This document shows positions 2,947 to 44,272 of a stretch of 64,000 bases of DNA, piece after piece. This stretch comes from Platanthera guangdongensis (taxonomy: Eukaryota > Streptophyta > Magnoliopsida > Asparagales > Orchidaceae), in contig CM077155.1 in NCBI GenBank assembly GCA_039583875.1, positions 8,792,043 through 8,856,042 on the forward strand, given 5' to 3'. The notes beneath the pieces were generated by a model that did no database searches, was not told where the DNA came from, and saw only the letters and a list, made by a program, of their open reading frames with translations. Both the position numbers and the translations under genes were made by a program. Positions within the stretch are counted from its first letter, which is position 1, and each line of letters starts with the position of its first letter.

Positions 2947-3254
2947 AAGAAGCCTAAACCCTACAAGCTAAGGTGAATAAAGCGTGTGGGAATGAAAAAC
3001 ATAACCTTGAAATTGAGTTGAGAGAGATATTCATTACCGATACCAATTTCTTGCGAGCAAACTTTGGAGCCACCTTTTGGAGCCACCTTAGCCTTAGCCA
3101 AGAGGGTAATCTCCCCATTTTCAGCTTCTGCAAATCTGGGTCTGTAGCATTTGACCCCTTGCTCCCCCTCAGGTCTTGCACCTGTGCTCACACTTGAGTA
3201 TCTGGCAGACGCTCCCCCTGGATGCACAAGCCTGGAGCTGTGGTAGTCTTCATT

Positions 3255-6200: not shown

Positions 6201-6417
6201 CTTCAACATAAGCCACGTCGGTGATAGAGATTATACCGTTGGAAATCATACCGTAACCTCTGGTGACTCCACAATCTGACCCCCCAAAGATGACTTTGGG
6301 TCCATTCTCGACGGGAGTGTAATCACGCAGTAGGCTTCTTGTCCCAGTCATATGCCGAGAGCATCCACTGTCCAAGTACCATATTGGCGTTTTGGTGGCC
6401 TTTGGACATTCCTGCAA
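3255..6417 (-). pseudogene. Copia B pol (protease, integrase, RT, RNase H), with stops
   Basis: One reading frame runs from 6417 leftward. The protease has 'YLDSGCSRHMTG' with its DSG catalytic triad. The integrase has GAG-pre-integrase 'HKRLAHI' and zinc-binding 'CPACQMGK', then a core with 'DLFGPM', 'RSDHGTEFE' and 'QQNGVAERRNRT'. The linker is '[11 protein letters not shown]', the RT box '[11 protein letters not shown]', and the RNase H shows 'GFSDADFAG', 'STTESEY' and 'CDSSSAIAI'. In-frame stops interrupt it near 5978 (TGA for the W of 'WHKRLAH'), 5849 (TAG for Q), 5372 (TGA, probably CGA) and 3410 (TAA). No large indel is visible and all catalytic motifs survive, so damage is light. The end near 3255 follows 'ADIFTKPLDEAK'. 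Confidence 0.92.
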
Positions 6418-6424
6418 AACAAAA

Positions 6425-8716: not shown

Positions 8717-8790
8717 GGTAGATGTTTTCCTTCTTCTTGACACTAGCGGCAGGATTCTACTCAAGGTGTTAACCTTTTTGATGAGAAACC

Positions 8791-8806
8791 TCCCTCTGAT
8801 ACCACT
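8791..8806 (-). other. Copia B primer-binding site
   Basis: On the element strand, AGTGGTATCAGAGGGA follows the 5' LTR directly. It contains TGGTATCAGAG, the complement of the initiator tRNA-Met 3' end used by most plant Copia elements. Confidence 0.88.
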
Positions 8807-10390: not shown

Positions 10391-10395
10391 AAAGG

Positions 10396-18378: not shown

Positions 18379-18475
18379 TGTTGGATCCCTATTTGATTTG
18401 GGCTAGGTTCACTAACTTAGGATGATGCGACCCAACATGTATAGGCAGGGTCATAGTTGTGTCCTAGAGTCTAGG
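18379..18475 (+). repeat. Copia C 5' LTR, first 97 bp
   Basis: Same as 40696-40792 apart from a few changes (TGTTGGATCCCTA, 'gacccaacatgtata'). The LTR is broken at CTAGG by Copia A and resumes at 31001. Confidence 0.93.
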
Positions 18476-20304
18476 TGTTGGGTACATTGGAATATATGTA
18501 CCTGATTTGAAGAAGCCTCACCCTACTCAATGATATACATCAAGGTGTGTTTGATGTACTTTGAGTTTATTTGTGCAGGTTAAGTAACTGCAGGAATGCA
18601 GAAAAGTTTCTAAGTCCATGTGTCGACACCTAGAGGTGAAGTGTCGACACTTATGAAGGCTAGTGTCGACACCTAGAGAAGCTGTGTTGACACTTGGAGT
18701 AATTGTGTCGACACCAGTAAGGCAGAGTCGACACCAGAAGAAAAGTGTCGACACATATAGGCAGTGTCGACACACAGTGAAGAATTGTCTACATAATCAG
18801 TGTCGACACTTAGAGGCAGTGTCGACACCCAGAGAAACTTTGTCGACATCAAAAGTGTCGACACCAGGAGGCTGTGTCGACACTCAGCAAACTTCAACAA
18901 AGTTAAAGTACTTGTGTCGACACAAAGGAGATGTGTCGACACTCAGCAAAGTTTCAACACATGAAGGCATGTGTCGACACAAAGGAGATGTGTCGACACT
19001 CAGCAAAGTTTCAACACAAGAAGATGTGTCGACACAAAGGAGTTGTGTCGACACACAGCAGAATTCCACTAAGTATTAAAGAAGAAGTACTTGTGTCGAC
19101 ACACAGAATCAGTGAAGACACATTCAACAGAAGGCCTGTGTCGACACACAAGATCAGTGTCGACACATTCTGAAGAAGCAGTGTCGAGAAGTTGTTACAA
19201 CAACATAAGGAGTTGTGTCGACACCATCAAGGCTAGTGTCGACACTTAGTCTATTTGTGTCGACACATAATGACTATCTGTCTCGACACTTTCAGACAGT
19301 GACAGAGATTTCAAGAAGTGACTGGATGACTTGACAGCTGCCATTTCAACCGGTCAACTGCAACTGTCAGAGCCGTCAGAAAGTTGTTAGAAACCGGATC
19401 AGCCAGTTATCTTGGAGGAAGACTATTTAAAGAACTTTCTCCTTCAATAGAGAGGGAGATTACAGATTGACAACAATCAATCAAGAGATCTAACGACACA
19501 AAATAAGAAGACCTTCAACAAAAGATCTAAGAAGTAGGAGAGAGAGAGCTCCTTCTAAGAAGAGCAGCTGCTGAACCGGGCTGCTAAGTAAGATTCAGAT
19601 TGAGATCTGAATCTCAAGACAGCAGTTGATTGAAGAACATCTGCAGAGGAGATTCAACCCTACTGTGTTCAAATTCAAGAAGCTTTGAAGAAAGCCAAGG
19701 GTGGTTGATCTCTGTCAAGTTCTTCCAAGAACTCATCAAGAAGCCAGTCAACTCATCTCTCTCTGTCAGAGTTGTGGTTATTCACTTTGTAAACTTTATT
19801 TTTTGTAAGATCCTAAGGGATCTGAGTTGTAAGCCTAAACTATAAAGGCTGAGGTAGGGCTTTTGTGCCTGAGTGTAGGAGATACTATTATCTGAGTGTA
19901 GGCCTTGATTGAAGGCTGAGGTAGGGTTGTTAAGCCTGAGTGTAGGTCTTGTTGAAGACTGAGTGGTAGGGCTTTGTGCCTGAGTTGTAGGAGTGGGGAC
20001 ACTCTGATTTGTAGAAACCTGTTTGGGGTTCTGAGTTGTAAGATCTAAGGATCTGAGAAGAAGTGGAGAAGTTAGGTCGAATCTAGTACACTACTAGATA
20101 GGCGAAGGGGGAAAGTGGATGTACCCAGGCCTTGTGTAACCACTATAAATCCTGTGTGCACTCTGTGTATGTTTGATTGTATGGTTGCTGTGTTGTGATA
20201 ATTGTATAATTGCATTTACTGTACAGTATTTCTGCCTTTAAAGTCAAAAATATAAAGGTCACCTAATCACCCCCCCTCTACGTGATTAGACACTATTACT
20301 TTCA
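18476..20304 (+). repeat. Copia A 5' LTR
   Basis: Pairs with 29142-30995. U3 holds the GTGTCGACAC array (18620-19290). A TATA-like ACTATTTAAAG is at 19422-19432. R/U5 has a run of short phrases on 'ctgagtgtagg' and ends with a C tract and TTTCA. Confidence 0.95.
18620..19290. repeat. GTGTCGACAC palindrome array in Copia A 5' LTR
   Basis: About two dozen copies of the perfect 10-bp palindrome GTGTCGACAC, centred on a SalI-type GTCGAC, plus some one-base variants (tgttgacac, tgtctacat). Spacing is irregular, roughly 15-40 bp, with short A/G-rich spacers such as 'aaaggagat' and 'tcagcaaagttt'. It lies upstream of the TATA-like box, about 135 bp away. Repeated at 29286-29979. Confidence 0.95.
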
Positions 20305-20320
20305 AGTTGTATCAGAGGGA
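20305..20320 (+). other. Copia A primer-binding site
   Basis: AGTTGTATCAGAGGGA directly follows the LTR end. It is the initiator-tRNA-Met type with G-to-T change (TTGTATCAGAG instead of TGGTATCAGAG), which may weaken priming. Confidence 0.78.
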
Positions 20321-20420
20321 CGTTACTCAAAAAAGGACATAACAGTCTGAGTAAGATCCTATAGGCAGAATCAGAATAAACAAGAATCAAGAAAATGGGT
20401 TCTAGTGAGATCACAAAGAG

Positions 20421-22432
20421 TTGGGGTCCATGAAATTGCCAATCTGTAGAAAAGAGATTTTTGGCATTTGGAAAGAGAGGGTTAGACTCTTTATGGAAGC
20501 ATCTGACCCAAGAATATACATCACAGTCAAAGAAGGGCCATATGTGCCAATGAAGATATCCATTCTAGATGCAAATCAGAAAACTCCTAAGAACTATTCA
20601 GAAATGACCAAAGATGAAATCATTCTGGCCACTATGGACAAGAGGGCCCAGAATATTATTGTTAGTGCAATTGATGATGCAACATTTCAGAATTTAATTC
20701 ATTGTAAAACTTCTAAAGAAATGTGGGACACATTAATAGTCTATATGGAGGGATCAGAAGAAGTACGACAAGACAGGAAGTCTTTGTTAAATTAGGAATA
20801 TGAAAGCTTCAGACAAGGAAAGTCTGATAATATTATTGAATGCTACAAGAAGTTCTATAGGATAGTAAATAAATTGATGTCCTATGGAAGAGAATTCAGC
20901 AACTATGAGCTGAATGACAAGTTCTTAAGATCCCTGACTAAGGACTGGGACACCAAGATTTGTGCCATTAGGGAAATGACCAAATTAGCTGATATACCTC
21001 CTCCAACTTTATTTGGAAAACTGTTATCTTATGAGATGCAGTTATTTGTTAGAAAGGAGGAAGAGAAGACTACTAGAGTAGAGCACAAGGAATGATCTGT
21101 GGCCTTCAAAACTGAAGCCACTAGGAAGTATAGAAGCAAGTCTCCATCTCCACCTCAAATAGTTGCTGAGGCTGTGACAGATAATTCAAAAAGCAAGAAT
21201 TCAGATTGCAGTGAAAGTGATGAAGACTTTGCAGCATTCACTAGGCATTTTCAAAAGTTTCTGAAGAAGAAGCAGTGGAGGTCTAAGACTTCCACTTCTC
21301 AACCAAAAGATGACTATTATCAGAAAAGAAAGTCATCAAGGAATGACAGAAGCAGATCCAATCCAAGCAAAGCTACATCTTCAAAGATTGTGTAATATTG
21401 CTGCAATAGATAGGGACATGTAGTGGCTGACTATCCTGAAAAGAGGAAGGGTCAACTGACAAAAAGAAGACTCAGTTTAAGGGCAAAAAGGAAAAGTCCT
21501 TTGTTGCTAAGAAAGACAAAAGTTTGACTGATCAGTCATCTTCAGAAACAGACTCAGAAGCTGAAGCCTATATTGGATTGTTTGCTGAAGAGGATGAAGA
21601 TGAGTTCATGCAGTTAATGAATTCAATTTATGAGCATGAGGACAATCAGTGCAAATGGCTGATGGCCTTATCTAAAGGAGACAAAATCCAGGATCAGCCT
21701 GGACCAAGTAAGGTACAAAGTTGTTCTTCTAGTTCAATTTCTAGTACTGAGTCAGAATCAGATACATCTGCATCAAGTGATGTGGGTGGGTCTGAATCTG
21801 AAGGAGATATTCATCAGTTAATTGATGAATATAGGGACTTATTGCAGGCCTTAAAGAAAAGCAAAACCTTATCCAAAACTCAGGCAAAGGAGATTGCTAG
21901 TCTTAAATTGGCTGCTGCTGATTCAGACAAGTTATTTGATCAGAAACTGAATGAAATAGCCAGGCTGAAGAACATTACTGTTATTCAGATGGGTACTATT
22001 ACATTTAAGAATGATCAAATTAGAAATCTGGAGGCTAGACTTCAGAATGAGAGAGAGATTGTAGCAAGTTTTTCTAAACCAAAATCTGTTTTACCTTTGA
22101 TAGATGAGTTTGTACCTCATAAGTGTAAAACTGGATTGGGGTTTACAAAACCTGCCTGGACAGTTAAGTCCAGATCTAAGGGCAAAGCCCCAGCACTAAA
22201 CAAGAAGGCTGCAAGAGATAATCCAGCCAGGGTTGTACCTAAACAAAGGTACAACAGGTTTGAGTGCCGGTATTGTGGCAAGATAGGCCACTTTGCCATA
22301 GATTGTTGGCACAATTCAAGTGTCAAGGAGAGTAGCAAACTACCTGCTAGAAGAGCTACAGGTAGTTTTGTTAAAAGTCAAACTAACCTGCACCAAGGAC
22401 CCAAGAATTATTTGGGTTCTAAGGTTAAGTAA
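20421..22432 (+). pseudogene. Copia A gag, with stops and frameshift
   Basis: The capsid part 'FGIWKERVRLFMEASDPRIY' and 'NDKFLRSLTKDWDTKICAIR' is close to Copia B gag. Stops lie at 20794 (TAG), 21093 (TGA) and 21393 (TAA), with a frameshift near 21450. The first knuckle is ruined ('GHVVADY', last Cys is Tyr, as in Copia B). The second knuckle, 'CRYCGKIGHFAIDC' near 22265, is a complete CCHC. The part from 21524 has Ser/Asp/Glu-rich and coiled-coil segments, then a basic stretch. Confidence 0.88.
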
Positions 22433-22439
22433 TATGTTT

Positions 22440-25400
22440 TGCAGGTGAGTCCAAGTGACCATGCCCCTATATGATACTTGGACAGTGGATGTTCCAGGCA
22501 CATGACTGGAACTAGGGGGTTGCTGAAGGACTATACACCAATCAAGGATGGTCCTAAAGTTACCTTTGGTGGTTCAGAAAAATGAATCATCAAAGGCTTT
22601 GGTAACATTTCTAGTAACCAAATTACAATTACTCAAGTGGCTCATGTAAAGGGTTTGAAATATAACCTCATTAGCATAAGTCAGCTGAGTGATTTAGGAT
22701 ATGACATCTCATTTGTCAAGAATGGTTGTCATATCAAAAGGTCAAGTGATCAAAAGATCATTCTGATAGGATATAGGAAGAGAAATGTCTATTGTCTTGA
22801 CTTTGTATGTGAGAACAATGTTTCTCCTATTTGTCTTGTAGCTGATGAGAAAGTCTCACATTGTGTTAAATGGCACAAGAGGCTGGCTCATCTTAACTAT
22901 AAGACAATTGGCAAACTCTTTAGCAAAGAGTTAGTGAGTAATGGTTCTCGGGTTAAGTGTATAAAGGATGGGATATGCTCAGCTTGTCAAAAAGGCAAGC
23001 AGGCCAAATAAACCTTTCATAGCCTTGAGAACAAAGATGTTGTGAGGTGTCTATACCTCTTGCATATGGATCTTTTTGGTCCTATGCCAGTTCACAGCCT
23101 AGGTAGGAAGGTCTACACATTTGTGGTTGTAGATGACTGTTCAAGGTTTTCTTGGGTGTTCTTCCTTAGACAAAAATCTGAAACCTCAAGTATCTTATAT
23201 AGTTTGTTAAACAAATTCAGAATGAATTGGACAGTATAGTAGTCAAAATCAGAAGTGACCATGGTACTGAATTTAAGTCTGAAAGTATGACAAAACTGTG
23301 TGAAGAATTTGGAATTTTTCAGGAATTTTCCTCAACAAGAACACCTCAGCAAAATGGTATTGTTGAAAGGAAAAATAGAACCTTGATAGAGGCTGGTAGA
23401 ACCCTTTTGAGTGACACATCCCTCCTAGAATATTTCTGGGCTGAGACAGTAAACACTGCTTGTCATGTGATCAATAGGGCTACTATGAGATTGTGAAGGG
23501 CAGAAAACCAAATTTATCCTATTTCAGGATCTTTGGTTGCAAGTGCTATATCCTTAACAATGGTAAGTCTTATCTAACCAAGTTTGTTGCCAAATCCCAA
23601 GAGGGGATCTTTGTTGGGTACAACAATAATAGTAAGGCTTATAGGGTCTACAACTTGATTACTCAAGTTGTAGAAGAGTCTGTTCATGTAGTTTTTGATG
23701 AAGCTAGACTTATTAACAATGAATTGCCAAGAAGTGTTTGCAGCTCTACAGGTGTAACTGATAAGATGGACAAGCTTACCTTAACAGAAGGTCCTTCTGC
23801 AAGTCAGCAGGTGGAAGATGGTGGTTGTTGTCCAGGGGGAGTACAAGATACTCCTGATGCTGAAGAAGACCAAGAGATGCATCTAAATGAAGAGACTGAA
23901 GGTGTACAACCTGAAGACAGACTGCCTCCAGCAAATAGACACTTAAAGGATCATCCAGCTAATCAAATAATTGGAGATCCCAGACAAGGGGTGCAAACAA
24001 GGAGCAGGAATCTAAGTACAGTTCTTCACTCCAGTTTTCTATCCCAAGTAGAGCCAAAGAAGTTTGAAGAAGCAATCCTAGACCCTCATTGGATTGAAGC
24101 CATGCAAGAGGAGCTGAATTAATTCAAAAGATGCAAGGTCTGGGAGATAGTTCCTAAGCCCAAGGACCACAACATTATTGGAACTAAGTAGATCTTTAGG
24201 AACAAGTTGGATGAGAATGGAATCATCATAAAGAATAAAGCTAGACTTGTTGCAAAGGGATATAGGCAGGAAGAAGGTATTGATTTTGATCAAACCTTTG
24301 CTCCAGTAGCAAGACTGGAAGCAATAAGGATGTTCCTTGCCTATGCAACATATCAAGGATTTAAGGTATATCAAATGGATGTTAAATCAGCTTTTCTGAA
24401 TGGAAATCTGAAGGAAGAAGTCTATGTAGAGCAGCCATCAGGTTTCGTTGATTCTATTAAACCTGATTATGTGTATAGACTTAGGAAGGCTTTGTATGGG
24501 TTAAAACAAGCCCCATGGGCTTGGTATGAAACCCTGTCTAGTTTCCTCATTGAGAATAAATTCTCAAGGGAAAAAATAGACAAGACTCTATTCCTTAGGG
24601 AATCCAGAGGCAAGATTATCTTAGTCCAAATATATGTAGATGACATAATATTTGGGTCTACAGAAAGTAGTCTTTGCAGAAAGTTTGCAAAACTCATGCA
24701 AGGATAATTTGAAATGAGCGGTATGGGGGAACTTAAGTTCTTCTTGGGTCTCCAAGTTAGACAGACTGAAGACGGATTATCCATATGCCAGTCTAAGTTC
24801 ACCCTAGAGTTGATAAGGAAGTATGGTATGGAATCATCCACTACCATGAAAACTCCTATTGGGTCAAGCATGTCTCTAAGCAAAGATGATGGAGGGAAAC
24901 TTGTAGATGAAACTTTGTATAGAGGGATATTTGGCTCCCTACTGTATTTGACTGTTAGTAGACTAGATATCATGTATGCTACATGTGTCTGTGCTAGGTA
25001 TCAAGCTTGCCCTAAAGAATCTCATCTGACAGCAGTCAAAAGGATTTTGAGATATCTTAAGGGCACACTTTATCTAGGCCTTTGGTACCCTAGGAATGGA
25101 GATTTTGTACTGACAGGTTATTCAGATGCAGATTTTGCATGCTGCAAGGAAGATAAGAAGAGTACTACAGGAACCTGTCAATTTCTAGGTGGAAGGCTGG
25201 TGTCATGTAGTTGTAAGAAGCAGACCAGTGTGGCCATCTCCACAGCTGAGTCAGAGTATGTTGCTGCAGGAAGCTGCTGTGCACAACTACTATGGATACA
25301 ACACCAGCTAGAAGATTATGGTATTCAAGTAAGTAGAACACATTTACTTTGTGATTCTACAAGTGCTATTTCTATTGCAAATAATCTTGTCTCACATAGT

Positions 25401-25577
25401 AGGACTAAGCACATAGATATTAAATACCATTTTCTAAGAGAACATGTAGAAAAAGAAGACATTTCCCTAGAGTATGTTAAGACAGATAATCAGTTAGCTG
25501 ATATGTTTACTAAGCCCTTAGATGAAACCAAATTCAATAAGTTTAAAATTGAATTAGGAATGATAAACTTAGAATAG
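22440..25577 (+). pseudogene. Copia A pol (protease, integrase, RT, RNase H), with stops
   Basis: Protease 'YLDSGCSRHMTG' follows a TGA that replaces its W. Integrase shows 'HKRLAHLNYKTIG', 'CSACQKGKQAK', 'RSDHGTEFKSES' and 'PQQNGIVERKNRT'. RT contains '[20 protein letters not shown]' and '[14 protein letters not shown]'. RNase H contains 'GYSDADFACC', '[19 protein letters not shown]' and 'CDSTSAISIAN' and ends with 'ADMFTKPLDETKF'. Stops lie near 22472, 22585, 23009, 24119, 24189 and 24704, with frameshifts near 23230 and 23494. Several stops read as TGG-to-TAG/TGA or CAA/CAG-to-TAA/TAG changes. The stop at 25575 is the genuine end. Confidence 0.92.
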
Positions 25578-25603
25578 TTTAAAAAAAATGGCTAAGTAAA
25601 ATA

Positions 25604-26040
25604 GTGTCGACACACAGAGTTGTCTGTGTCGACACATAGAAGTGGTGTCGACATTTCAGAGAAATGGTGTCGACACAAATAGACAGTAAGTGTCGACACT
25701 TCAGAGAATTAGTGTCGACACATGCAGAGTAGGTGTCGACACAACCAAGGTGGTGTCGACACTTAGGATTTACACAGAATTCGTCGAGTAGAGTCTCGAC
25801 TAAGTGTCGAGCTAAGATATATAATTGTCGACACATATATTCTGTCGACTATATTTGTGTCGACGCATTGTTGTAAAAACATTAGAAGTACATGTCGACA
25901 CTTTTCAACAGTGTCGACACATTTCAAGTATTTTGACGCGCCTTTTCACCTTCGATTTTAGAAAGGTATAAATAGGTCTTCACCATTGTTTGTCGACACG
26001 CTCACCATAGTTTTGAGACCAAACTTGTGTGTCGACATCT
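25604..26040. repeat. GTGTCGACAC array between pol and the extra ORF of Copia A
   Basis: Roughly fifteen copies of the same palindrome as in the LTR, some partial (GTGTCGACA, GTCGAC), fill the 430 bp between the pol stop and the extra ORF start. This segment is not a copy of the LTR: spacers differ. The motif therefore occurs at two functionally similar places in one element. Confidence 0.92.
25967..25974 (+). promoter_or_regulatory. Candidate internal TATA box before the Copia A extra ORF
   Basis: TATAAATA at a distance of 101 bp from the ATG at 26075, embedded in the palindrome array. A pyrimidine/A-rich leader without ATG until 26075, apart from 26027 in the same frame, follows. This would let the extra ORF be transcribed separately from gag-pol. 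Confidence 0.55.
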
Positions 26041-26074
26041 CTCTTCTCTAAATTCAAAATTTCTTCAAACCCTA

Positions 26075-28898
26075 ATGGCGCCCAAGCTCGAAGAGAACAT
26101 TAATGAAGGATATGAGCTCGTGCGACACGCCTTTGATGACGCGGAACCAGAAATCCAAGGTGTGGTAATCCTAGTTGCAGAGACTGGATTAGAGTATCTT
26201 GTATCAGAACCAATCAAGATCTGGAAGAAGGAGGTCCTTGAATTCTTGAGTACAGCTACTCTTGATAAATCTGGACTCAAGATTAAGTCCAAAGTTCATG
26301 AGGCAAAAGTCAAGATTACCCTTAAAAGTCTAAGAAAGATTCTACATCTCCCTAGAACTAAAGAAGAGGAAGATGTACCTGCATCAAAGACAAGGGAGGC
26401 ACTAGAATGGTGTGGTTTAGATTCAAGCCTGAAAATTGGATCAGTTTTCAACAGGAAAGGCATGAACATGCAGGGCAAGTTTTTATCTGAAATAGTAGGC
26501 AAGGTAATTCTGAGCAAGCCTGGTGTGCATGATAGAATTTCAGCTCACATGTTCAGTTTGATGACAAAGATAATTTTCAAACTTAATACTGATTGGTCAA
26601 TAGTCATGTTTGAAAAGATAAAAGAGAGTCTGAAGAAACACAATCTGGGTAGAATTCTGAGTTTATACTTAGCTGGAAGTATTCCTGAAGTGATGAACCA
26701 AGCTGCAGGTTCAAAGATAAACCACATGAGGAGAATGGATGTTAGAATTTTCTCAAGGTGGGATAGAGTATTGACAAAAGAAATTCCTACACCAGAGAAG
26801 GAAACACATCAGAAGAAGAATTAGAAGAAAGCCATTGTGGCTCCAGAATCCTCAAGTAGCTCAGAGGATCAGGTGGCCTTTAGTTCTGATGATGGAGAAG
26901 ATGACAATGCTGGAAAGTCATCAGCAAGACAAGAAGATGCTCAGAGGCAGGGGGAGCTACCATCAGCTAGCCCTATTCACCTGGATCCACTCCAGGGGGA
27001 GTCTCTACATGTAGATGAGCCAACCCAATTAGAGAGTGAAAGGGCTACCCAAACAATTCTAGAGGTAATCACTGAAGTTAATCAATTAAATTTCAATATT
27101 GAGGATGAAGTTCTGACTGAATCATTACATGATGTTGATCAGCATACACAGTCACATAGTCAACCACAAGATGTTGTCATGGAGGACACATCAGTTGCTG
27201 ATAAAGTAGAATCAGTTGCTCCAGAGTTGAGAGATTCTCCTGTACAACCTCAACATGAGTTTACATTAGAAGAGCTGTTCCCTGATCTTTTACAGACTGA
27301 CTTTGAGGGAGAGAAAGCAGCTGTTGAGGGGGAGAAGGTCAATCTTGAGGGGGAGCAAATAGAGGAAACTGCTACAAAAGAGACTGAGGAGCAAAGGAAT
27401 GTTGAGGAACTACCAAGGACTGAGAAGGATTTACCTCCTAGTCCTGAGGACAGGGTAGACATTGCTAGTACATCTTAATCTGAAGATAAAGAGCCTACTA
27501 GAGACAAGAAAAGGAAGTTACAAGTCTTCAAGAGAAGAAGTCAAAGCTACAAGAAAGCTTTACAAACAGTTGCTCCACAACAAGCTCCAACAAATGAATA
27601 TAGTTCCTTGTTGGTGGCTTTGCAAATAAAACTGGATGAGCAAAGAAAAGCTATGAAAACTTATATGGATGAGCACCATAAGGAATTACAATTGTCCTTA
27701 GCTCAAGACATCAAATCTATTAGATTTGAAGTTAATCAACATAAAAAGGAAATGACTGATTATTTCCATAAAGGAGGCAATGCAGTGGTCTATCTGGCTA
27801 CTCATCAAGAGAACATTAAGAAACAGGTTGATGACATGGCAATAAAACAAGGATATGTCCTGGAAAATCAGCTCAGAATGAATGATAATCTGACTGCTTC
27901 TCATAATTCCATTGTCACTGAAATGAAAAATATAGCTACTGCACAGACTGCTGTAACTGCTACTGCCAAAGAAGCCTTTGATAAGAAACTACAAGAGAGC
28001 CTAACTACTGTTAAAACTACCATTGAAGATTCTCAGAAGGCAATTACTGACAAGTTATAAAGGTTAAAACCTTTTTATAAAGATGGAGTTAACTATTTAA
28101 ATGCTCAAATCAGATTCCAAAAGGATGATCTTAGAGATCATATAGAAAGAGAAGTCATAAAGGGGGAGAGGGTATTAGTCAAAGCAGGCTCTGATCATGC
28201 CAAATGGATTTCAAACTCCATCAGAGCTACCCTTGGATATCCACCCTTGTGTGATGATGATAATGTGGCAGAATCTGGGATTAATCCTGCATATTTTGGA
28301 GGAGAACAAGCTGAAGTGGCTCAAGTGATATATCCTCCTGCAGATTTTGACATGATACATCAAGAGGTACAGTCTATGTATAGTCCTCCTGAGGGTAAAC
28401 AAAATGTTATTCTTGAGAAAGTAGTACAGCCTGTGCTAGAGGCAATATTAAAAGAGCAAGAGGCATTACTAAAACAGCAAGAAGCTCAATTATCTAAGAA
28501 GAGGTTCAGAGAGCAGCTGAATTAAGGCCAGACTTTGAGCAATGGAGCCCAACCTCTAGGAATATCATATTAACTGCTTGGAAGGCTGCAAAAGATAATT
28601 TTCTAGAGAGGGGCAAATGGTATTGTGACCAGGAATGGAAAAAGGATGAAGCTAGGCAAGAGGTCATAGTACAATACAGAAGGAAGGCTAAATTAGGGAA
28701 GCTACCTCCTAATGCACAGGAGCCTAGCAAGTATTTCCCTAAGCCTTATCATTATTTTGAGAGACAGAAGATAAGGGCTGAAGAACAGAAAAAGAAAGAT
28801 CTTAAAGGGAAGAAGCCTGCTATGACAATGATGCTCCAGTTCAAGCAAAGATTCAATCTGGAAAGGGCATTGTTATCAAGGAGCCAGAGCAGCCATAG
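26075..28898 (+). pseudogene. Copia A extra ORF after pol (about 930 codons, with stops)
   Basis: A single frame starts at ATG 26075 (MAPKLEEN) and runs to 28525, broken only by TAG 26822, TAA 27476 and TAA 28058. A frameshift near 28497 and a second near 28825 lead to a likely end at TAG 28896. Order: a globular N-terminal domain of about 230 residues ending 'RIFSRW'; an acidic, Ser/Glu/Gln-rich region; a basic 'DKKRKLQVFKRR' that could be a nuclear localisation signal; a long coiled coil (27600-28060); and a Lys/Glu-rich C-terminus with 'GKWYCDQEW'. No signal peptide or convincing membrane span is seen. The N-terminal domain is homologous to that of Copia C (38356-40542) and resembles the 'putative plant transposon protein' group. 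SIRE elements are known for an extra 'env-like' ORF at this place; the look here is of a nuclear or DNA-associated protein. Function unknown. Confidence 0.8.
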
Positions 28899-29131
28899 AT
28901 TAGGATTTTCTTAAGTTTACAACTCTGTAATCTTTTACATTAAAATCAATGTAAACTTTTGATAATGAGACTATTGGAAGTTATAACAAAAAAATGTTTG
29001 ATCTGTTACATTTGTATTCTGTAATGATTGTTTATACATATTTTGTTAAGTATTTACCCTATCATATAATACTGTTTTACATCATACTGTATGGTGTATA
29101 TCATTGACTAAGGGTTATGACTTCTCCAAAT

Positions 29132-29141
29132 AGGGGGAGAT
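29132..29141 (+). other. Copia A polypurine tract
   Basis: AGGGGGAGAT directly before the 3' LTR start TGTTGGG. Confidence 0.88.
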
Positions 29142-30995
29142 TGTTGGGTACATTGTAATATATGTACCTGATTTGAAGAAGCCTCACCCTACTCAATGAT
29201 ATACATCAAGGTGTATTTGATGTACTTTGAGTTTATTTGTGCAGGTTAAGTAACTGCAGGAATGCAGAAAAGTTTCTAAGTCCATGTGTCGACACCTAGA
29301 GGTGAAGTGTCGACACTTATGAAGGCTAGTGTCGACACCTAGAGAAGTTGTGTCAACACTTGGAGTAATTGTGTCGACACCAGTAAGGTAGAGTCGACAC
29401 CAGAAGAAAAGTGTCGACACATACATGCAGTGTCGACACGCAGTGAAGAATTATCTACATAATCAGTGTCGACACTTAGAGGTAGTGTCGACACCCAGAG
29501 AAACTTTGTCGACATCAAAAGTGTCGACACCAGGAGGCTGTGTCGACACTCAGCAAACTTCAACAAAGTTAAAGTACTTGTATCGACACAAAGGAGATGT
29601 GTCGACACTCAGCAAAGTTTCAACACATGAAGGCATGTGTCGACACAAAGGAGATGTGTCGACACTCAGCAAAGTTTCAACACAACAAGATGTGTCGACA
29701 CAAAGGAGTTGTGTCGACACACAACAGAATTCAACTAAGTATTAAATAAGAAGTACTTGTGTCGACACACAGAATCAGTGTCGACACATTCAACAGAAGG
29801 CTTGTGTCGACACACAGGATCAGTGTCGACACATTCTGAAGAAGCAGTGTCGAGAAGCTGTGACAACAACACAAGGAGTTGTGTCGACACCATTAAGGCT
29901 AGTGTCGACACTTAGTCTACTTGTGTCGACACTTAGTCTATTTGTGTCGACACATAATGACTATCTGTCTCGACACTTTCAGACAGTGACAGAGATTTCA
30001 AGAAGTGACTGGATGACTTGACAGCTGTCATTTCAACCGGTCAACTGCAACTGTCAGAGCCGTCAGAAAGTTGTTAGAAACCGGATCAACCGGTTATCTT
30101 GGAGGAAGACTATTTAAAGACCTTTCTCCTTCAACAGAGAGGGAGATTACAGATTGACAATAATCAATCAAGAGATCTAACAACACAAATGAAGAATACC
30201 TTCAACAGAAGATCTAAGAAGTAGGAGAGAGAGAGCTCCTTCTAAGAAGAGCAGCTGCTAAACTGGGCTGCTAAGTAAGATTCAGATTGAGATCTGAATC
30301 TCAAGACATCAGTTGATTGAAGAACATCTGCACAGGAGATTCAACCCTACTGTGTTCAAATTCAAGAAGCTTTGAAGAAAGACAAGGGTGGTTGATCTCT
30401 GCCAAGTTCTTCCAAGAACTCATCAAGAAGCCAGTCAACTCATCTCTCTCTGTCAGAGTTATGGTTATTGACTTTGTAAACTTTATTTTCTGTAAGATCC
30501 TAAGGGATCTGAGTTGTAAGCCTAAACTATAAATGCTGAGGTAGGGCTTTTGTGCCTGAGTGTAGGAGATACTATTCTCTGAGTGTAGGCCTTGATTAAA
30601 GGCTGAGGTAGGGTTGTTTAGCTTGAGTGTAGGTCTTGTTGAAGACTGAGTGGTAGGGCTTTGTGCGTGAGTTGTAGGAGTGGGGACACTCTGAGTTGTA
30701 GGAACCTGTTTGGGGTTCTGAGTTGTAAGATCTGAGGATTTGAGAATAAGTGGAGAAGTTAGGCCGAATCTATTACACTACTAGATAGGCGAAGGGGGAA
30801 AGTGGATGTACCCAGACCTTGGGGAACCACTATAAATCCTGTGTACACTCTGTGTATGTTTGATTGTATGGTTGCTGTGTTGTGATAATTGTAGAATTAT
30901 ATTTATTGTACAGTATTTCTGCCTTTAAAGTCAAAAATATAAAGGTCACCTATTCACCCCCCCCCCCTCTAGGTGATTAGGCACTATTACTTTCA
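29142..30995 (+). repeat. Copia A 3' LTR
   Basis: Pairs with 18476-20304. Differences are scattered substitutions, a small duplication ('cgacacttagtcta' repeated near 29920) and a longer C tract near 30960. The palindrome array is at 29286-29979 and the TATA-like box at 30109-30119. Confidence 0.95.
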
Positions 30996-31000
30996 CTAGG

Positions 31001-32651
31001 CCACGTCCTTAGAGTCAACATCAGATGAACCAGCTATCAACAAGACTATCAGGGACTCAAGACTTAGAAGATTTCAAGACCAAGTAAAATGAGTTCGACG
31101 TTCGTCAAACTCAGGTCGACGAAAGATGTTCTCAGCTCGATGATCTTGAGATATTTCTCTGAGCTGAGCTCGACGATCTTCATTCTCTGATCGATGAAAA
31201 TTGGGATATTTCTTCAACTATCTAAAGTCAGGATAACTCCAAATTATTTGAAGTCCGGCTTCAGACTTTGTTCGACGAACTGGATCCTGAGCTCGATGAA
31301 CTTGGACCTCAACTTCACAAGAACCTTCAGTTAGAAGTCCTCAGGTCGACGAACTTTGTTCATTGGTCGACGAAATCTGGATCCTTTACTTCAGCACCTA
31401 TATTCATGAATTATTTTAAGTCCAGAATAGTTGCTGAACTCCAGTCGACGAAATTACAACCTCAGCTCGACGAACCTCACACAGAAAAAGCAAAGGCTCT
31501 GAAGCATGCAGTTATGTTTTCAGCTCGACGATCTTGGAACTCAGCTCGACGAACAGAAGCTGTCTAGTCAACGAATACAAAATCTCAGTTCGACAAACTA
31601 GTAACTCGGCTCGACGAATTCTGTTATTCGTTCGAATACTCTAGACTTAGTCATTTCCGGCCTTCTGTCCCCATTCCAATGCGGAAATTCCTGAGTAATT
31701 AATGCTCTACATTCTCTGAATGTATCCGTTAGAAGGAGCATTGATTACGGTCTTCTTCAGGAATATTACTTGTCGATTTTCCACGGGACAGTTGAGGAAA
31801 TGATTCAATGTCGATTATTCTCAAGGCGTCAGCATTAATTACCGATGATTCAAATTTTTGAAAAGATATAGAAGCATACAAGATCGATAATCGGCAGTCT
31901 GGAAGAACATACTCAGTCAGAAAAATATAGACGACATAGACTGACTGCAAGAATTCATACAGTAGTAGAAAAGCTTCACACAAAAAATCATACTGAAGCT
32001 TACAGTGACATGCAGTGATCATACCTCCAGGACTTCCAAGGACAACAAAATAACAAATCAGTCAAGAAGCTTTTGCATCACTGCCTGTCAAGAACTCTGA
32101 TTGAAGACCTATCACCCTACAGCAAAGCTTCCAAATCTTCCTGAACCATTCAATATTTCAGGGGGAGCTTTTGCTAAACATCAATCCACTTAAGTTTTCT
32201 CAGTTTTTTGAGAAAGAGAAGACAAAATCACTCTCTTACCCCTCCTGTATAAAGGGTTGTCATCTCCCTTCAAAAGTGATTCCTGGTTGCAAGTCTCCTA
32301 ACCAAAAGACTTGAGTTGGTTTTTGGGGACCTGATCAAAACTCATTAGTGTCAGGCACCTGATCAAAAACCTGAGTGGATTCCTACCAGGGTGGTAGAAG
32401 AGTGGACTACCCAGATTTGGGGAACCACTATAAATTTCTTGTGTCGTCTGGTTGCCTATCTTTTTCTTTTTGTTCTTGCTGTGTGGCTGTGATTAGGTTA
32501 ACTATTTTCCATTTTCCAGTTTCCTAATTACTGCACCTTTTCAGTTTACAGCAAAAGCTGTAACAGCACCTTTATATGGACCTAACAAATTTTAAATATA
32601 CTCTATTCACCCCCCCCCTCTTGAGTATTGTAGACCTAACCCTCACTTTCA
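31001..32651 (+). repeat. Copia C 5' LTR, remainder
   Basis: Continues 18379-18475 after the Copia A insertion and pairs with 40793-42425. It contains the TCGACGAA motif array (31093-31646), a TATA box TGTATAAAGG at 32246-32255 and a C tract close to the end CTTTCA. Confidence 0.93.
31093..31646. repeat. TTCGACGAA motif array in Copia C 5' LTR
   Basis: About twenty sites of the type GTTCGACGAA, GCTCGACGA or the complement TTCGTCGA, often with one-base variants, spaced irregularly over 550 bp. The equivalent array in the 3' LTR is at 40884-41430. Confidence 0.9.
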
Positions 32652-32668
32652 ATTGGTATCAGAGGAGG
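32652..32668 (+). other. Copia C primer-binding site
   Basis: ATTGGTATCAGAGGAGG follows the LTR end; TTGGTATCAGAG is the initiator-tRNA-Met type site. Confidence 0.88.
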
Positions 32669-32768
32669 TTCCCTTGGTTGCACAAGTTAAATCTTGAACC
32701 CAAAGATCCCTTGTTAGATCTACACATCACCTTCATTCACATTTAACTTTTAAAGTAGAAACACAGCC

Positions 32769-34893
32769 ATGACACAGAATAAAGATTATGCAAGAGCCAG
32801 ACCTCCAGTTTGCAACTTGCAAAAGTTTGAAATCTGGAAGGCAAGAATCAAGTTATACATGAATTCTATTGATAAAGATATCTTTGTTTCCATCTTAACA
32901 GGAGTACCTTCACCACCTACAGCTCCTCCAAGTAACTCTACAAATATGATTGCAGTACCTCCTGTAGATTATAATGATGCTTGCAGGAAAGCCAAGATGG
33001 CTGATGCAAAAGCCATGAACATATTAGCACAAATAATGTCTGATGACATTTTCTAGAAGGTTGCTGAGTGCACATCATCAAAAGCCATTTGGGATTCCCT
33101 AAACTAAATGGTTGATGGATCAGCTGATGAAAGGAAGGATAGGAGATCAAATCTCATATGCCAATATGAGAATTTCAAGAAACAGGAAGTTGAAACAGTC
33201 TCAGAGATGTATAATAAATTAAGCTCAATTATTAATGAGCTAAAAACTCTGGACAAGGTCATCACTCTCACTGAAGTGAATGACAAAATTCTGATGTGCT
33301 TCCCAAGCTCATGGGACATAAGAATTTGGCCCATCAAGGAGGCCAGATGCCTAAATGAGATTTTAACTGAATCTCTATTGGGTAAACTAAAGTCTTATGT
33401 GCAGTTAATAAAGACAAGGTAGGCTGCTGAACAAAGAACACCTCCAGCAGCTAGAAGAGAACAGAGCATAGCCTTCAAATCCTCAGAATAATCAAAATCT
33501 TCAACATCAAATGAAGAACTTATAAGTCTCTTGGCTAAGAGATTTTTCAAGATGGCTAGAAAGGACTTCAGAAGAAAGTCATCAAGAAAAGATGACAGAC
33601 CAAAGTATGATAAGACACCAACAAAGGAAGTGGTGTGCTATGGATGCAGGAAGCCTAGAAACTTTCTCTCTGAGTGTCCAGAGAACCAGAAGAAAGAGAA
33701 GAGAAGAAAAATGAAAAGGATTCCAGGAGACAGTACACCAGCAAACCCTCTTCCAGCAAACACAAGAAGAAGGAAAAGGGGTTTGTGGCTGAGACCTGAA
33801 GTGAGACTGAAGAAGAGTCAACATCCTCAAGCTCTAGTGAAGATGAGGAAGAAGAACGAGTAAAGGAGGTTTGCCTCATGGCAATTGATGCCTCAAGAAG
33901 CAACTCAGAAGAAGGAGATTCAGAAAATGAGGAAGCTTCTGAATCAGAAGCTGATCAGGTATTATCATGGTTTGATTATAGTTATGAATCTTTTAAATCA
34001 GATTTTAAAATCATGTGTTTAGATTTAATCAACTCTGAGAAGAAAATCAAACTTCTCAGAGATAAACAAGTTAACTATGATAGCTTAATTTTAAAAAAAC
34101 ACTAAATTAAAAAATGAAATAGACATGTTTAGTGAATAAATCACTCTTCTGAAAGATGAATTAAGTAAAGCAAAATAGCTAGAAGAATCAATAAATGGAA
34201 GAAACAAACAACTAGCAGCAATCACCAACATATCTAATGCTAGATTTAATGGAAGTAAGTTAGGATTAAGTGCATCATCTAGTGAACCACCTATTATTCA
34301 GAAAAACCACGTGTCACAACCCATAAATTTTATTTCTGAGAAAGGAAAGAAGAATACTGATCAAGTATATAAGGTAAATAAAATTCTTGAACAAATTAAA
34401 ACTAAGGACAAAATTGAAAAACATAAAACACCCAATAAAAACAAAGTTCAGCAATTTTTGTCGACCTCAGATCGACGAAAAGGGGCCAGTTCGTCGAACC
34501 CAGATCGACAAACTTTGAACGCCAACTATAGTTATCATTATTCATCTAATTGCGATCGACGAACTTTGTATGGTCTGCTCGACGAACGTGGGGTACAGAG
34601 AATGAACAAGTTCATTCTCTGGGCAGAGATCAACGATCTCAATCCAATTTGTCGAACTCTGATCGACGAACTTACATAAATTCGTCGAATCCAGGAAGAC
34701 TTAGTCAAAACTATAACTTCAACAGAAACTTAAATACTTCTAGGAAACAATTTAATCCATTGGCTGACTGGACCATTCCACCTAGGAGATATCACCCCCT
34801 AGGATATAAATCCCAGCCAGAATTTTCTGTTATTTCTAGTTTCTCTTATCAGCCATACAAAGGGCCCAAGGTAACCTGGATCAAAAATCATTA
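32769..34893 (+). pseudogene. Copia C gag, with stops and frameshifts
   Basis: Starts MTQNKDYARARPPV with 'FEIWKARIKLYMNSIDKDIF', the Copia gag capsid start. Stops lie at 33054, 33105, 33420 and 33489. The zinc knuckle near 33640 reads 'CYGCRKPRNFLSEC': the His of CCHC is Asn. A frameshift occurs near 33715. From 34459 to 34692 the coding sequence is overrun by the element's own TCGACGAA motif. The end is near 34893, just before the protease. Confidence 0.82.
34459..34692. repeat. TCGACGAA motif cluster inside Copia C gag/pro region
   Basis: About nine copies of TCGACGAA/TTCGTCGA or one-base variants lie within 230 bp of apparently coding sequence, which reads through as a low-complexity linker ('DRRTLYGLLDERG'). 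The corresponding region of Copia A and B does not contain it. Confidence 0.8.
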
Positions 34894-34903
34894 ACTGTTT
34901 GTA

Positions 34904-37970: not shown

Positions 37971-38240
37971 TCGACGAATTTTCCAGAGTTCGTCGAACGG
38001 AGTTCGACGAACTAGGGAAAGGTTGAGAGATACTCGTCGAACGGAGATCGACGAACTCTCTGTGAGTGAAACAAGTTTCATTGACCAGCGATCAACGAAC
38101 TTTGCTTCAGAAGATATTCATCGACCTAAGTTCGACGAACCGTCTTCAATTCTTTTGATGAGCTCGACGAATTATTTAACTCTAAACTATTTCGTCGACC
38201 TCAGTTCGAAGAATTAATTTTATTTTTGTGGAACGGAGTT
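37971..38240. repeat. TCGACGAA motif array between pol and the extra ORF of Copia C
   Basis: About a dozen copies of TTCGACGAA/TTCGTCGAAC, also 'gatcgacgaact', precede the extra ORF, in the same position as the GTGTCGACAC array of Copia A. The sequence is not an LTR copy. Confidence 0.88.
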
Positions 38241-38355
38241 TGTCGATTCATATTCTGGAAAACCTTATATCTAGGTTTTCTTCGACCTCCATCCCGCGCT
38301 TTCTGTTCCCTTACACTTGATCGCCGTTTTTGTGTCTTTCTTGCAGGTGATTTCA

Positions 38356-40542
38356 ATGGCGACTCTGGCAAGCAATCTCACAGGAATGAAGTTTGATACA
38401 GGATTTGACGTGGATTTCGATTCATTTCAACATTCCGATCCAATCTTTCTGTATATCTTGGAACTTCTTGAAGAACATGAACTAAAAACCCTGATGACGA
38501 GAAGGATCAAACTGCACAGCATGGAAATCATGGAATGGGTATACACACTATCGCAAACAGAAGAGAATATCATGACGGGCACCATTGCGGGTAACTCCAT
38601 CTCTTTAACCCCCGCCATCTTAACTGAAATCTTTGGATTAAGAAATGGAGAAGTGGACCTCGAGATTGAAGTAGAGGAATCGGATATGATGTTAAACCTC
38701 ATGGAGTATACTGGAGATAATCCTAACAAGCTTTTGAAGAAACACATGTCTGCCCCCTATAAGTTTTTAGCAGACTTAGTTGGCAAGGTATTACTTCGGA
38801 AACACGCTGCCCATGACTATATCACCAAACAATAGTTTTTGGTTATGTGTGAAATCATCAACAAAAAGCCAATTAACTGGGCACAACTTATGTTTGATTT
38901 GATAAAGAAGAAGAACACTAAGAAGGAAGTTTGTTTTGGAAGAATTCTAGGAATCTTCCTACAGGAAAAGGCTGTTGAATCCCTGGTCTCCCAGATCATA
39001 TTCATAAATTCCAGTAAAAGGCTGACATGTGCCTTATTTGGCAGATGGGAGAGGACCATCACTAAGCCCTCTAAGGCTTCCACCTCTTCCACCAAAGCTT
39101 CTGAAGGGACAAGGGTTGTCAAAGCCACTCCCCACCCTGCTGAAGAGAACATTCCTTCCACATCTTCTTTTCCAGCCCCCATTCCAACAACAATAAAATC
39201 CTCAGTCACTCCATCTTTACCAATCACCATCACTGACATTCCCTCCTCCTCCCTTCAGGAAAATCAACCACCCATACCTCTTGAATCCCCTCATGATACA
39301 TACATTTCTACACCACCACAGTCTCCACTTCCCCCACATCTATCTTCCATACCATCTTACATCCTAACATCAGACACCATGATGCTTGATGCCACCCTTC
39401 CATCCCCATCAACATCTAACCTTCACATACCTGACATTCAACCCTCTATTCCATCAATAGTTTCCACCTCTTCCACACCAATTGCACCACCATCTACCAA
39501 TTTCTCATTGGACCCCTCTACCATCTCATCTATCATCACCATCATCACTCCCCTTCTTAAATCACTTATAGCAGAGGTCATTACACCTCTTGCTACCACC
39601 ATTACATCTTTATCTGCCCAAATATCTGCTCTCACTGCTGCCCCCTCCTCAGTCAGGGGCTTGGCCTCCGTTCCCACTGAAACCAGGCAGGGGGAGATTC
39701 CTGATGATGAAGCAGCAGCTACAGCTTCAGAGTCTTCAGCTCCAGCTCTAGCAGATGCCCCAGCTTCACCACCAGCATATACAGCATGTTTAGATAAAGA
39801 TTTGAGTGATTTTATTGATACTGATATGGATGTTAATGAGACTGTTGGTGATTTCATTCTTAATCCCACAGTTAACTTAGAAGATTTGCTGAAAGCTTTT
39901 GATACTGTACATATGCATCTTCTTCCAGCAAACTTCACTAAGCCATATTTGGCTATTATCTCTTATACATCTCCTGTTAGTCCAGCAGTTGCTAAGCAAC
40001 TTTGGGACAACTTTGTACTTCCAGACTATGCAGTCATTCCATCCCCTTCAGAAGCTATTTCAGCACCAATCTTTGTGATGGATGACTCTCCCATGCCAGA
40101 TCTAGATGCATTGATCTTGGCTGACATTGCAGAAGAAACAAAAGCAGTTGAAAGCTCAGTTCAGGTTCCAACTGAAAAACTTATTGTATCTGAGGACATC
40201 TTGAGAGATATATATGCTTTATATGATAATCCTCAGGATTCAGATGATGATGATGATGATGAAGATTCAGATGAAGAAGCTGCTAAGAAAAAGAAGAAAC
40301 TTTTGTCAAAGAAAAGGAAAGACCCTCCTCCTCTTGCTGTTAAGCCAAGCCCAAAGAATGACACTCCATACTATATCCTCCAAAATATTACTCCTTACAA
40401 AGGAATGCCAGCATGGATGTGGTTGTCTAAAAATCAGCAAAAGGAGAAGAAAAGAAGTAGAAGATACTCTCCTCCTCCAGTTCAGAGATATAGAAGAAGA
40501 AGTAACCTTTACATGGTTTTAACTTTTCTGCATTTACTTTAA
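38356..40542 (+). pseudogene. Copia C extra ORF after pol (728 codons, one stop)
   Basis: A single frame from ATG 38356 (MATLASNL) to TAA 40540, interrupted only by TAG 38833 (probably CAG). The N-terminal domain, about 230 residues, shares 'KFLADLVGKVLLRK...HD', 'INWAQLMFD' and the closing 'FGRW' with the Copia A ORF. A long Pro/Ser/Thr-rich region follows, then a hydrophobic/amphipathic stretch (about 39530-39650), an acidic run of Asp/Glu (40240-40285) and a strong basic cluster 'KKKKKLLSKKRK', which looks like a nuclear localisation signal. The C-terminus is Arg-rich. The ATG is preceded by a pyrimidine tract ending TTCTTGCAG, a good splice acceptor, so a spliced subgenomic RNA is likely. 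The hydrophobic stretch is why such ORFs have been called env-like, but no signal peptide is visible. Function unknown. Confidence 0.82.
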
Positions 40543-40695: not shown

Positions 40696-42425
40696 TGTTG
40701 GATCCCTAGTTGATTTGGGCTAGGTTCACTAACTTAGGATGATGTGACCCAACATGTATAGCCAGGGTCATAGTTGTGTCCTAGAGTCTAGGCCAATCCT
40801 TAGAGTCAACATCAGATGGACCAGCTATCAACAAGACTATCAGGGACTCAAGACTTAGAAGATTTCAAGACCAAGTAAAATGAGGTCGACGTTCGTAGAA
40901 CTCAGGTCGACGAAAGACGTTCTTAGCTCGACGATCTTGAGATATTTCTCTGAGATGAGCTCGACGATCTTCATTCTCTGATCGACGAAAATTGGGATAT
41001 TTCTTCAACTATCTAAAGTCAGGATAACTCCAAATTATTCTAAGTCCAGCTTCAGACTTTGTTCGACGAAATGGATCCTGAGCTCGATGAACTTGGACCT
41101 CAACTTCACAAGAACCTTCAGTTAGAAGTTCTCAGGTCGACGAACTTTGTTCATTGGTCGATGAATTCTGGATCCTTTACTTCAACAACTATATTCATGA
41201 ATTATTCTAAGTCCAGAATAATTGCTGAACTCCAGTCGATGAAATTACAACCTCAGCTCGACGAACCTCAGACAGAAAATACAAAGGCTCTAAAGCATGC
41301 AGTTATGTTATCAGCTCGATGATCTTGGAACGCAGCTCGACGAACAGAAGCTGTCTGGTCGACGAATACAAAATCTCAGTCCGATGAACTAGTAACTCAG
41401 CTCGACAAATTCTGTTATTCGTTCGACGACTCCAGACTTAGCCATTTTCGGCCTTCTGTCCCCATTCCAATGCGAAAATTCCTGAGTAATTAATGCTATA
41501 CATTCTCTGAATGTATCCGTTAGAAGGAGCATTGATTACGGTATTCTTCAGGAATATTACTTGCCGATTTTCCACGGGATAGTTGAGGAAATGATTCAAT
41601 GTCAATTATTCTCAAGGCGTCAGCATTAATTACCGATGGTTCAAATTTTTGAAAAGATATAGAAGAATACAAGATCAATAATCGGCAGTATGGAAGAACA
41701 TACTCAGTCAGAAAAACAGAGACGACATATACTGGCTGCAAGAATTCATACAGTAGCAGAAAAGCTTCACAAAAAAAATCATACTGAAGCTTGTAGTGAC
41801 ATGCAGTGATCATACCTCTAGGACTTCCAAGGACAACAAAATAACAAATCAGTCAAGAAGCTTCTGCATCACTGCCTGTCAAGAACTCTGATTAAAGACC
41901 TATCACCCTAAAGCAAAGCTTCCAAATCTTCCTCAACCATTCAATATTTCAGGGGGAGCTTTTGCTAAACATCAATCCACTTAAGTCTTCTCAGTTTATT
42001 GAGAAGGAGAAGACAAAATCACTCTCTCACCCCCTCCTGTATAAAAGGTTGTCATTTCCTGGTTGCAAGTCTCCTAACCAAAAGACTTGAGTTGGTTTTT
42101 GGGGACCTGATCAAAACCCATTGGTGTCAAGCACCTGATCAAAAACCTGAGTGGATTCCTACCATGGTGGTAGAAGAGTGGACTACCTAGATTTGGGGAA
42201 CCACTATAAATTTCTTGTGTCGTCTAGTTGCCTATCTTTTTCTTTTTGTTCTTGCTATGTGGTTGTGATTAGGTTTACTATTTTCCGTTTTCCAGTTTCC
42301 TAATTACTGCACCTTTTCAGTTTACAGCAAAAGCTGTAACAGTACCTTTATAGGGACCTAACAAATTTTAAATATACTTTATTCACCCCCCCTCTAGCGT
42401 ACTGTAGACCTAACCCTCACTTTCA
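40696..42425 (+). repeat. Copia C 3' LTR
   Basis: 1,730 bp, TGTTGGATCC...CTTTCA; pairs with 18379-18475 plus 31001-32651. The motif array is at 40884-41430 and the TATA box TGTATAAAAG at 42039-42048. A roughly 20-bp deletion relative to the 5' LTR lies near 42055. Confidence 0.94.
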
Positions 42426-43952: not shown

Positions 43953-44272
43953 GACACAGTTGTTATCGACTAAGCTTTCTGTGTGTCGACACAAGTCCTG
44001 TGTGTCGACACAGTTGATGTCGACTGATTTTCTGTGTGTCGATACAAGTTCTGTGTGTCGACACAAACTGATTCCTGGTGTCGACACAGCCTTTCTCATG
44101 TGTCGACACAATGCTTCTCAAGTGTCGACACTTGTACTTAGAAAATTTTCCTTGCAATTTCTTAACCTGCACAATGAAACTTAAAACACCACATCAAATA
44201 CACCTTGATGACTATCATTGAGTTAGGTGAGGCTTCTTCAAATCTGGTACACATTTTTCAATGTACCCAACA
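43953..44272 (-). repeat. 5' part of a SIRE-type LTR (family A')
   Basis: On the minus strand it starts TGTTGGGTACATTG at 44272, as Copia A does, with 'gatttgaagaagcctcacc', and runs into at least seven GTGTCGACAC palindromes before stopping at GACAC beside the Tat LTR. It is inserted in the Tekay integrase. Its continuation is probably 1-613. Confidence 0.85.

Follow-up and report, generated by a model that had tools for sequence, protein, structure and literature searches.

Palindromic boxes repeated in the LTRs and again upstream of an envelope-like gene have been described for 13 Sireviruses (Bousios et al. 2010, BMC Genomics 11:89, PMC2829016). Among these 13 boxed elements, copies in the gap ahead of the extra gene were found in all nine with an envelope-like gene and in none of the four without one; six envelope-bearing Sireviruses without boxes are also mentioned (PMC2829016). 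The boxes ahead of the envelope-like gene were taken as support for an internal promoter, an idea credited there to Peterson-Burch and Voytas 2002, but conclusive identification of this promoter was not achieved (PMC2829016). In MASiVEdb, the ENV-like gene is regarded as possibly no true envelope gene (PMC3414828). Among the matches listed in a search of the open-licence literature, we found no later identification of an internal TATA box in Sireviruses, nor of an extra-ORF product that binds the boxes.

Accessory genes are also known from other elements, and several of their features recur in the Copia A element of Platanthera guangdongensis described here. The gene23 of the maize Gypsy element Grande lies between pol and the 3' LTR and is reported to have its own promoter and a nuclear product (PMC7264820), features that are present or proposed for Copia A; by contrast, gene23 is antisense and its element is a Gypsy, whereas the extra ORF of Copia A is in the sense orientation of a Copia element and has the LTR motif repeated ahead of it (PMC7264820, Vicient and Casacuberta 2020). 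VANDAL elements likewise combine family-specific arrays of short motifs in noncoding DNA with an accessory ORF (Hosaka et al. 2017, PMC5735166). VANDAL is, however, a DNA transposon, VANC21 binds YAGTATTAY (a nine-base, non-palindromic motif in tandem repeats), and VANC proteins cause methylation loss (PMC5735166). The aORF of sunflower Athila (PF20167) resembles the Copia A gene in being an accessory ORF that is somewhat similar to PF20167 and includes a basic stretch of nuclear-targeting type (PMC11728184), but the matches obtained here, at 12-22 bits, fall far under the Pfam cut-off of 45. A 2026 sunflower paper asks, citing VANC, whether the extra ORFs of Tork and Athila shape methylation (PMC12844716).

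The window, by which we mean the whole 64,000-nucleotide stretch that was analyzed, comes from the large, LTR-element-rich genome of P. guangdongensis (21 chromosomes, PMC9023349). Copia A spans 18476 to 30995 on the plus strand and is flanked on either side by CTAGG (18471-18475 and 30996-31000), a target duplication of 5 bp. Its 5' LTR (18476..20304) and 3' LTR (29142..30995) are ~95% identical by BLAST, and the element was inserted into the 5' LTR of the related Copia B on the same strand. The 3' LTR of Copia B (40697..42425) carries a TCGACGA array. A third element, Copia C, occupies 1354-10391 on the minus strand, and a diverged, reverse-oriented LTR fragment of Copia A type carries a box array at 43983..44131. 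BLAST self-matches also revealed a tandem repeat at 12546-13557, with a unit of ~147 bp or half that.

Copia A belongs to the Sireviruses. The PPT AGGGGGAG, a Sirevirus hallmark, was found at 29132, ~10 bp 5' of the 3' LTR, and further copies of AGGGGGAG were located upstream at 26949, 26994, 27327, 27348 and 28161. Both AGGGGGAG tracts and the TATCAGAG primer site are hallmarks common to Copia A and Copia B. The primer-binding junction characteristic of Sireviruses, CA-ATTGG-TATCAGAGC, was present with deviations, as CAATTGGTATCAGAGG in Copia B and CAAGTTGTATCAGAGG in Copia A; the last base differs in both elements, and in Copia A the spacer differs as well. Close to the 3' end of its LTR, near 20270, Copia A carries caccccccctct, recognized by eye as the C-rich integrase signal of Sireviruses.

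The palindrome GTGTCGACAC was detected 59 times in the window compared to 0.02 occurrences expected, a count reached by 0 of 100 shuffled sequences. Of these exact boxes, 22 are in the 5' LTR and 23 in the 3' LTR of Copia A, where they form U3 arrays (18620-19289 and 29286-29976) like the repeated U3 palindromes of Sireviruses; six are in the LTR fragment at 43983-44131, and the remaining eight are in the gap between pol and the extra ORF. Together with six boxes that carry one mismatch, these eight give the gap 14 boxes at 25604-26038, and the recurrence of the LTR array in this gap was thus correctly reported in the initial annotation. By contrast, no box was found in the gag-pol region (20305..25579) or the ORF region of Copia A even when one mismatch was allowed. 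The distal array of the gap (25604..25762) consists of seven exact boxes and one with a single mismatch, spaced in steps of 19-23 bp (mean 21.3, or about two helical turns), a regularity equaled by 1 of 20000 random placements. It is followed by a degenerate cluster at 25793..25920 that includes one exact box, at 25911. In the 3' LTR, a candidate TATTTAAA was noted at 30111, ~135 bp past the last box (29967-29976). Throughout the 4.25-Gb genome, two boxes exactly 9 bp apart were counted 297,702 times and the reversed pattern 0 times.

This layout had been presented in the initial annotation as new; it is the one already known from Sireviruses (Bousios et al. 2010, PMC2829016), and what our sequence analysis appears to add is evidence for an internal promoter. 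Shared with the Sirevirus RM boxes are the high copy number of the palindromes in U3 and in the gap that separates pol from the extra gene, the use of one motif per element, the CpG richness and the restriction of gap copies to elements in which the extra gene exists. The core differs, as it is TCGA here (GTGTCGACAC in Copia A, TCGACGAA in Copia B) and no CGG-CCG was found. Among the published boxes, Tnd-1 ACAATCGATTGT is the one listed exception without CGG-CCG, and the Vitis box CGGTCGACCG is centered on TCGA (PMC2829016). A further difference is the conserved TATA box seen here, together with box cores located at the expected transcription start and downstream of it. Judged by its sequence, Copia A is a further member of the Sirevirus box system, distinguished by another core and by a conserved TATA.

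The initial annotation had also stated that the spacers between the boxes differ from LTR to gap. This proved true of the best-matching spacers, which were no closer than shuffled ones (166 of 500 shuffles as good), but over all pairs the gap and LTR spacers were slightly closer than shuffled (10 of 500 shuffles as good). When the diverged LTR fragment, which ends at 44272, was compared to Copia A, identity was 0.85 in the box columns, 0.43 in the array spacers and 0.86 in the LTR start ahead of the array. Thus, the boxes outlive the sequence that intervenes between them. TCGACGA-like sites were seen by eye at 43755-43850, in another repeat region that adjoins this fragment.

The boxes also differ from the coding sequence in CpG content. 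In Copia A, observed/expected CpG is low in the gag-pol (0.04) and ORF (0.06) regions compared to the gap (1.25) and the LTRs (0.42-0.45); the corresponding values for Copia B were 0.15, 0.15, 1.71 and 0.65-0.68. The same contrast was found in 30 copies of the Copia A subfamily (1.15 in the 480 bp upstream versus 0.20 in the first 740 bp of the ORF) and in 30 copies of a diverged subfamily, A2 (0.92 versus 0.26), and suggests long-term maintenance of the boxes. The LTR pairs were used to test if, since insertion, CpGs inside boxes had changed less often than those outside. In Copia A, 2 of 26 box CpGs had changed compared to 6 of 13 others (p 0.0098), where the 2 include one site, changed differently in each LTR, that was assigned by eye. 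No significant difference was obtained for Copia B (8/31 versus 8/22, p 0.55, one double-change site omitted) or Copia C (1/13 versus 14/95, p 0.69). Because significance was limited to Copia A, protection of box CpGs after insertion was rejected as a general property and is not claimed.

The extra ORF of Copia A begins at 26075, and its first open piece (26075..26824, plus strand) encodes 249 residues with homologues in Platanthera. A putative internal TATA box, TATAAATA, is located upstream at 25967..25974 on the plus strand, at the distance of 101 bp (last base to ATG) given in the initial annotation. It is the sole full match to TATAWAWR, the TATA consensus used for scoring, on the plus strand of the 8.8-kb Copia A interior; matches to this consensus are present in ~3.9% of 150-bp stretches on the plus strand of the window. 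Two promoter-proximal boxes follow: TTGTCGACAC (box 1, 25990..25999), at the expected transcription start, and GTGTCGACAT (box 2, 26029..26038), inside the putative 5' leader. With its start placed from the position of the TATA box, this leader would run from 25998 to 26074 on the plus strand; it is 61% pyrimidine over 26000-26074 and has no ATG, whereas 128 ATGs would precede the ORF in a full-length leader that starts at ~19456. Because its frame closes at 25973, within the TATA box, the extra ORF is no extension of pol.

Conservation of this arrangement was examined in two sets of copies from the same genome. The A set comprised 30 copies, that of the window included, from the best of 150 scored among 103,000 first-look candidates for the ORF; the A2 set comprised 30 of 106 scored among 87,456 candidates, found with the diverged relative P0002 as query. 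The A copies were the best-scoring 30, and neither set is a random sample. Of the 30 A copies, 29 have an exact TATAAATA 107-110 bp upstream of the ATG, as do 26 of the 30 A2 copies; TATA[AT]A was found at this distance in 29 of 30 copies of each set. The GTCGAC core was retained near -83 (box 1) in 25 A and 26 A2 copies, and near -44 (box 2) in 27 and 29, respectively. Since the A copies are close relatives, conservation within this set says little. Between A and A2, the TATA segment (identity 0.80), box 1 (0.67) and box 2 (0.89) were more alike than the two spacers between them (0.26 and 0.24); identity was 0.50 in the rest of the leader, 0.685 in the sequence just upstream and 0.66 at the ORF start. 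For box 1 the core persists, although the whole 10-mer is within two mismatches of the motif in only 1 of 30 A2 copies. The motif was also found downstream of the A2 ORF, past a TGTTGG, in all three stretches examined; this TGTTGG was taken as the LTR start and the region as the 3' LTR.

A gene model of P. zijinensis, P0005, joins pol to the ORF via a peptide that resembles a translated promoter. When this 24-residue peptide was compared to the window, 14 of 24 codons were compatible at 25965; the next best position in the window gave 7, and the best of 100 shuffled peptides gave 9 within the gap. Of the 14 compatible codons, 13 lie on the TATA segment, on box 1 and its right flank or on box 2, and one lies in a spacer. 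The back-translation appears consistent with the same arrangement of TATA and boxes in P. zijinensis, and is no proof of the letters.

Copia B provides a parallel case with a motif of its own. Its gap array (37971..38246) is composed of TCGACGA/TCGTCGA and variants, and gap and LTR arrays share one motif, TCGACGAA/TTCGTCGA, that is different from that of Copia A. The extra ORF (38356..40542, plus strand; one in-frame stop, at 38833) is homologous to that of Copia A, with 24% and 32% identity in two pieces. A TATA-like TATATCTA lies at 38266..38273 on the plus strand, 90 bp upstream of the ATG; in a set of 21 B copies (the window copy and the next 20 of 150 scored), this position is occupied by TATATCTA in 20 and by TATATATA in one. 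The Copia B TATA is non-canonical. Just 5' of the ATG is a pyrimidine-rich, splice-acceptor-like TCTTTCTTGCAG (38335..38346, plus strand), and TTGCAG is present at -15 in 18 of the 21 copies. Among the first 16 of 93 copies scored for P0004 (the related B2 set), a TATA-like pattern was found at the matching place in 3, and TGCAG was located no more than 20 bp from the ATG in 11. Two of these 16 copies (L096 and L101) have no gap array and no TCGA, with an observed/expected CpG of 0. A further array of Copia B, near the end of gag at 34458-34690, includes ten sites of TCGACGA/TCGTCGA and variants, in part at 14- and 19-bp steps.

The LTRs of Copia C, on the minus strand, carry palindromes of GATTCTCG and CGAGAATC, with 12 exact half-sites at 2341-2590 and 10 at 9799-10034. 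In its interior, no exact half-site was found, nor was any ORF of at least 150 residues between pol and the 3' LTR. Across the three elements of the window, Copia A and Copia B have both the extra ORF and box copies ahead of it; in Copia C neither was found at these limits, which fits the published rule that links gap boxes to the extra gene.

Based on these results, the extra ORF of Copia A probably has its own internal promoter, and the other explanations were weighed against this reading. One alternative is that the ORF is expressed from a spliced RNA initiated in the LTR, the mode predicted for certain env-like genes of plant Gypsy elements, with the array serving as an enhancer or in another role; as a general account this is unlikely. 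It is favored by the TTGCAG and TGCAG kept near the ATG in B and B2 copies, but in Copia A a loose pattern derived from the splice-acceptor consensus had just two matches within 25900-26074 (25901 and 25956), each of them 5' of the TATA box. A search for the donor pattern gave one site in the leader and gag of Copia A, at the gag-pol junction (22442), and none in 32100-34950 of Copia B. Splicing would moreover leave the conserved TATA and box cores unexplained. Predicted splice acceptors are described for BAGY2 and Athila (Bousios et al. 2010, PMC2829016). A spliced RNA is a live rival for the B clade, where the TATA box is non-canonical, its pattern is rare in B2 and TTGCAG/TGCAG is kept. The gag-pol TTGCAGGTG was also considered as a splice site and rejected, as the reading frame runs through it.

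It is highly improbable that the palindromes act as RNA or DNA structure, for example as hairpins in read-through RNA from which small RNAs are made, instead of as sites for protein binding. One strand of the array folds at -79.8 kcal/mol compared to a shuffle mean of -43.4 kcal/mol (z -10.4), and maize Sirevirus palindromes and small RNAs were reportedly studied by Bousios in 2016. A stable fold is no test, however, because any run of identical palindromes would fold in this way, and structure alone explains neither the fixed distance of the TATA box nor the boxes kept amid near-random spacers. Still less credible is an array that arose as a functionless by-product of tandem repeat expansion or of exchange between LTR and interior. 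Tandem arrays do grow easily, longer duplicated units were seen within the LTR arrays, and gap and LTR spacers are slightly alike over all pairs; by contrast, the best-matching spacers are no closer than shuffles, boxes survive as spacers approach random, CpG-rich boxes persist next to CpG-poor coding sequence, and each of the elements A and B shows its own motif in LTR and gap alike.

With an internal promoter as the preferred explanation, TATAAATA at 25967 would be an RNA polymerase II core promoter element that sets the transcription start near 25997-26000, and the transcript would consist of a short, ATG-free leader followed by the extra ORF. One sequence-specific factor would bind the U3 array of the LTR as well as the array at 25604-25920 and the boxes at 25990 and 26029, and would thereby place the genomic and ORF promoters under joint control; activation, repression and autoregulation are all conceivable roles for the boxes located at the expected start and past it. 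An internal promoter that shares its factor with the LTR had been proposed in the initial annotation. The TATA box and box cores kept in A and A2, the P0005 peptide, the ATG-free leader and the closed frame all lend support to the internal promoter, and we infer from these sequences, their positions and their conservation over two subfamilies that transcription may start at this site, that a factor may bind and that control may be joint. A factor common to LTR and gap can be fairly inferred because A, A2 (three stretches) and B each use one motif in both places. The conserved TATA would give the internal-promoter hypothesis a specific, testable candidate in a very abundant family. A search of Rfam with 25500-26200 at gathering thresholds gave no match.

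The product of the extra ORF was also examined. In Copia A, the first open piece is followed in the ORF frame by three more, with stops at 26822, 27476 and 28058 and a final stop at 28523. Protein searches at E up to 0.01 gave matches to Platanthera proteins alone, and a search of viral contigs returned no relatives of the ORF and one paired-box match, in L001. When eight proteins or pieces of the extra ORFs were scanned with Pfam, six matched PF20167 (Transposase_32) at 12.1-22.2 bits, compared to the cut-off of 45, and two were unmatched. Other Pfam matches (MethyTransf_Reg and NELF-A_N for pieces of A, YL1 for B) were weak, below cut-off and discarded. The lone solved-structure match, to a diadenosine tetraphosphate hydrolase (E 0.047 with a 4-row profile, searched at E up to 1), was not believed. 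AlphaFold models of the first 249 residues were unusable, with a mean pLDDT of 43.6 (6 rows) or 46.9 (9 rows). By hydropathy scan, no transmembrane segment was detected in the four open pieces of Copia A (top 19-residue mean of 1.23), and the top means of the Copia B ORF, 1.23 and 1.67, were borderline. An envelope role for the ORF product is not supported. A nuclear role is plausible from the sequence; a basic stretch, KKRKLQVFKRR, is present in the Copia A ORF and is nearly alike in P0001 (KKRKLMVFKRR).

In the initial annotation, a feedback circuit like that of VANC had been suggested in case the ORF product binds the motif; the domain searches and structure models gave this idea no direct support. 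By analogy to VANC, the ORF product might be a nuclear DNA-binding regulator of its own element, with the family-specific boxes of the LTR and of its own start site as targets, a tentative reading that we consider unlikely. Such a protein would control genomic transcription as well as its own supply, and might enable the element to resist silencing. If the ORF product does bind the boxes, the 'envelope-like' gene would be a self-encoded regulator, an LTR retrotransposon would have a VANC-like circuit, and some Sirevirus 'envelope' genes would be recast as regulators. Protein and motif would also be expected to change together between families. In the elements compared here, A and A2 have related ORFs and a common motif, and the ORF of Copia B, 24-32% identical to that of Copia A, is associated with another motif.
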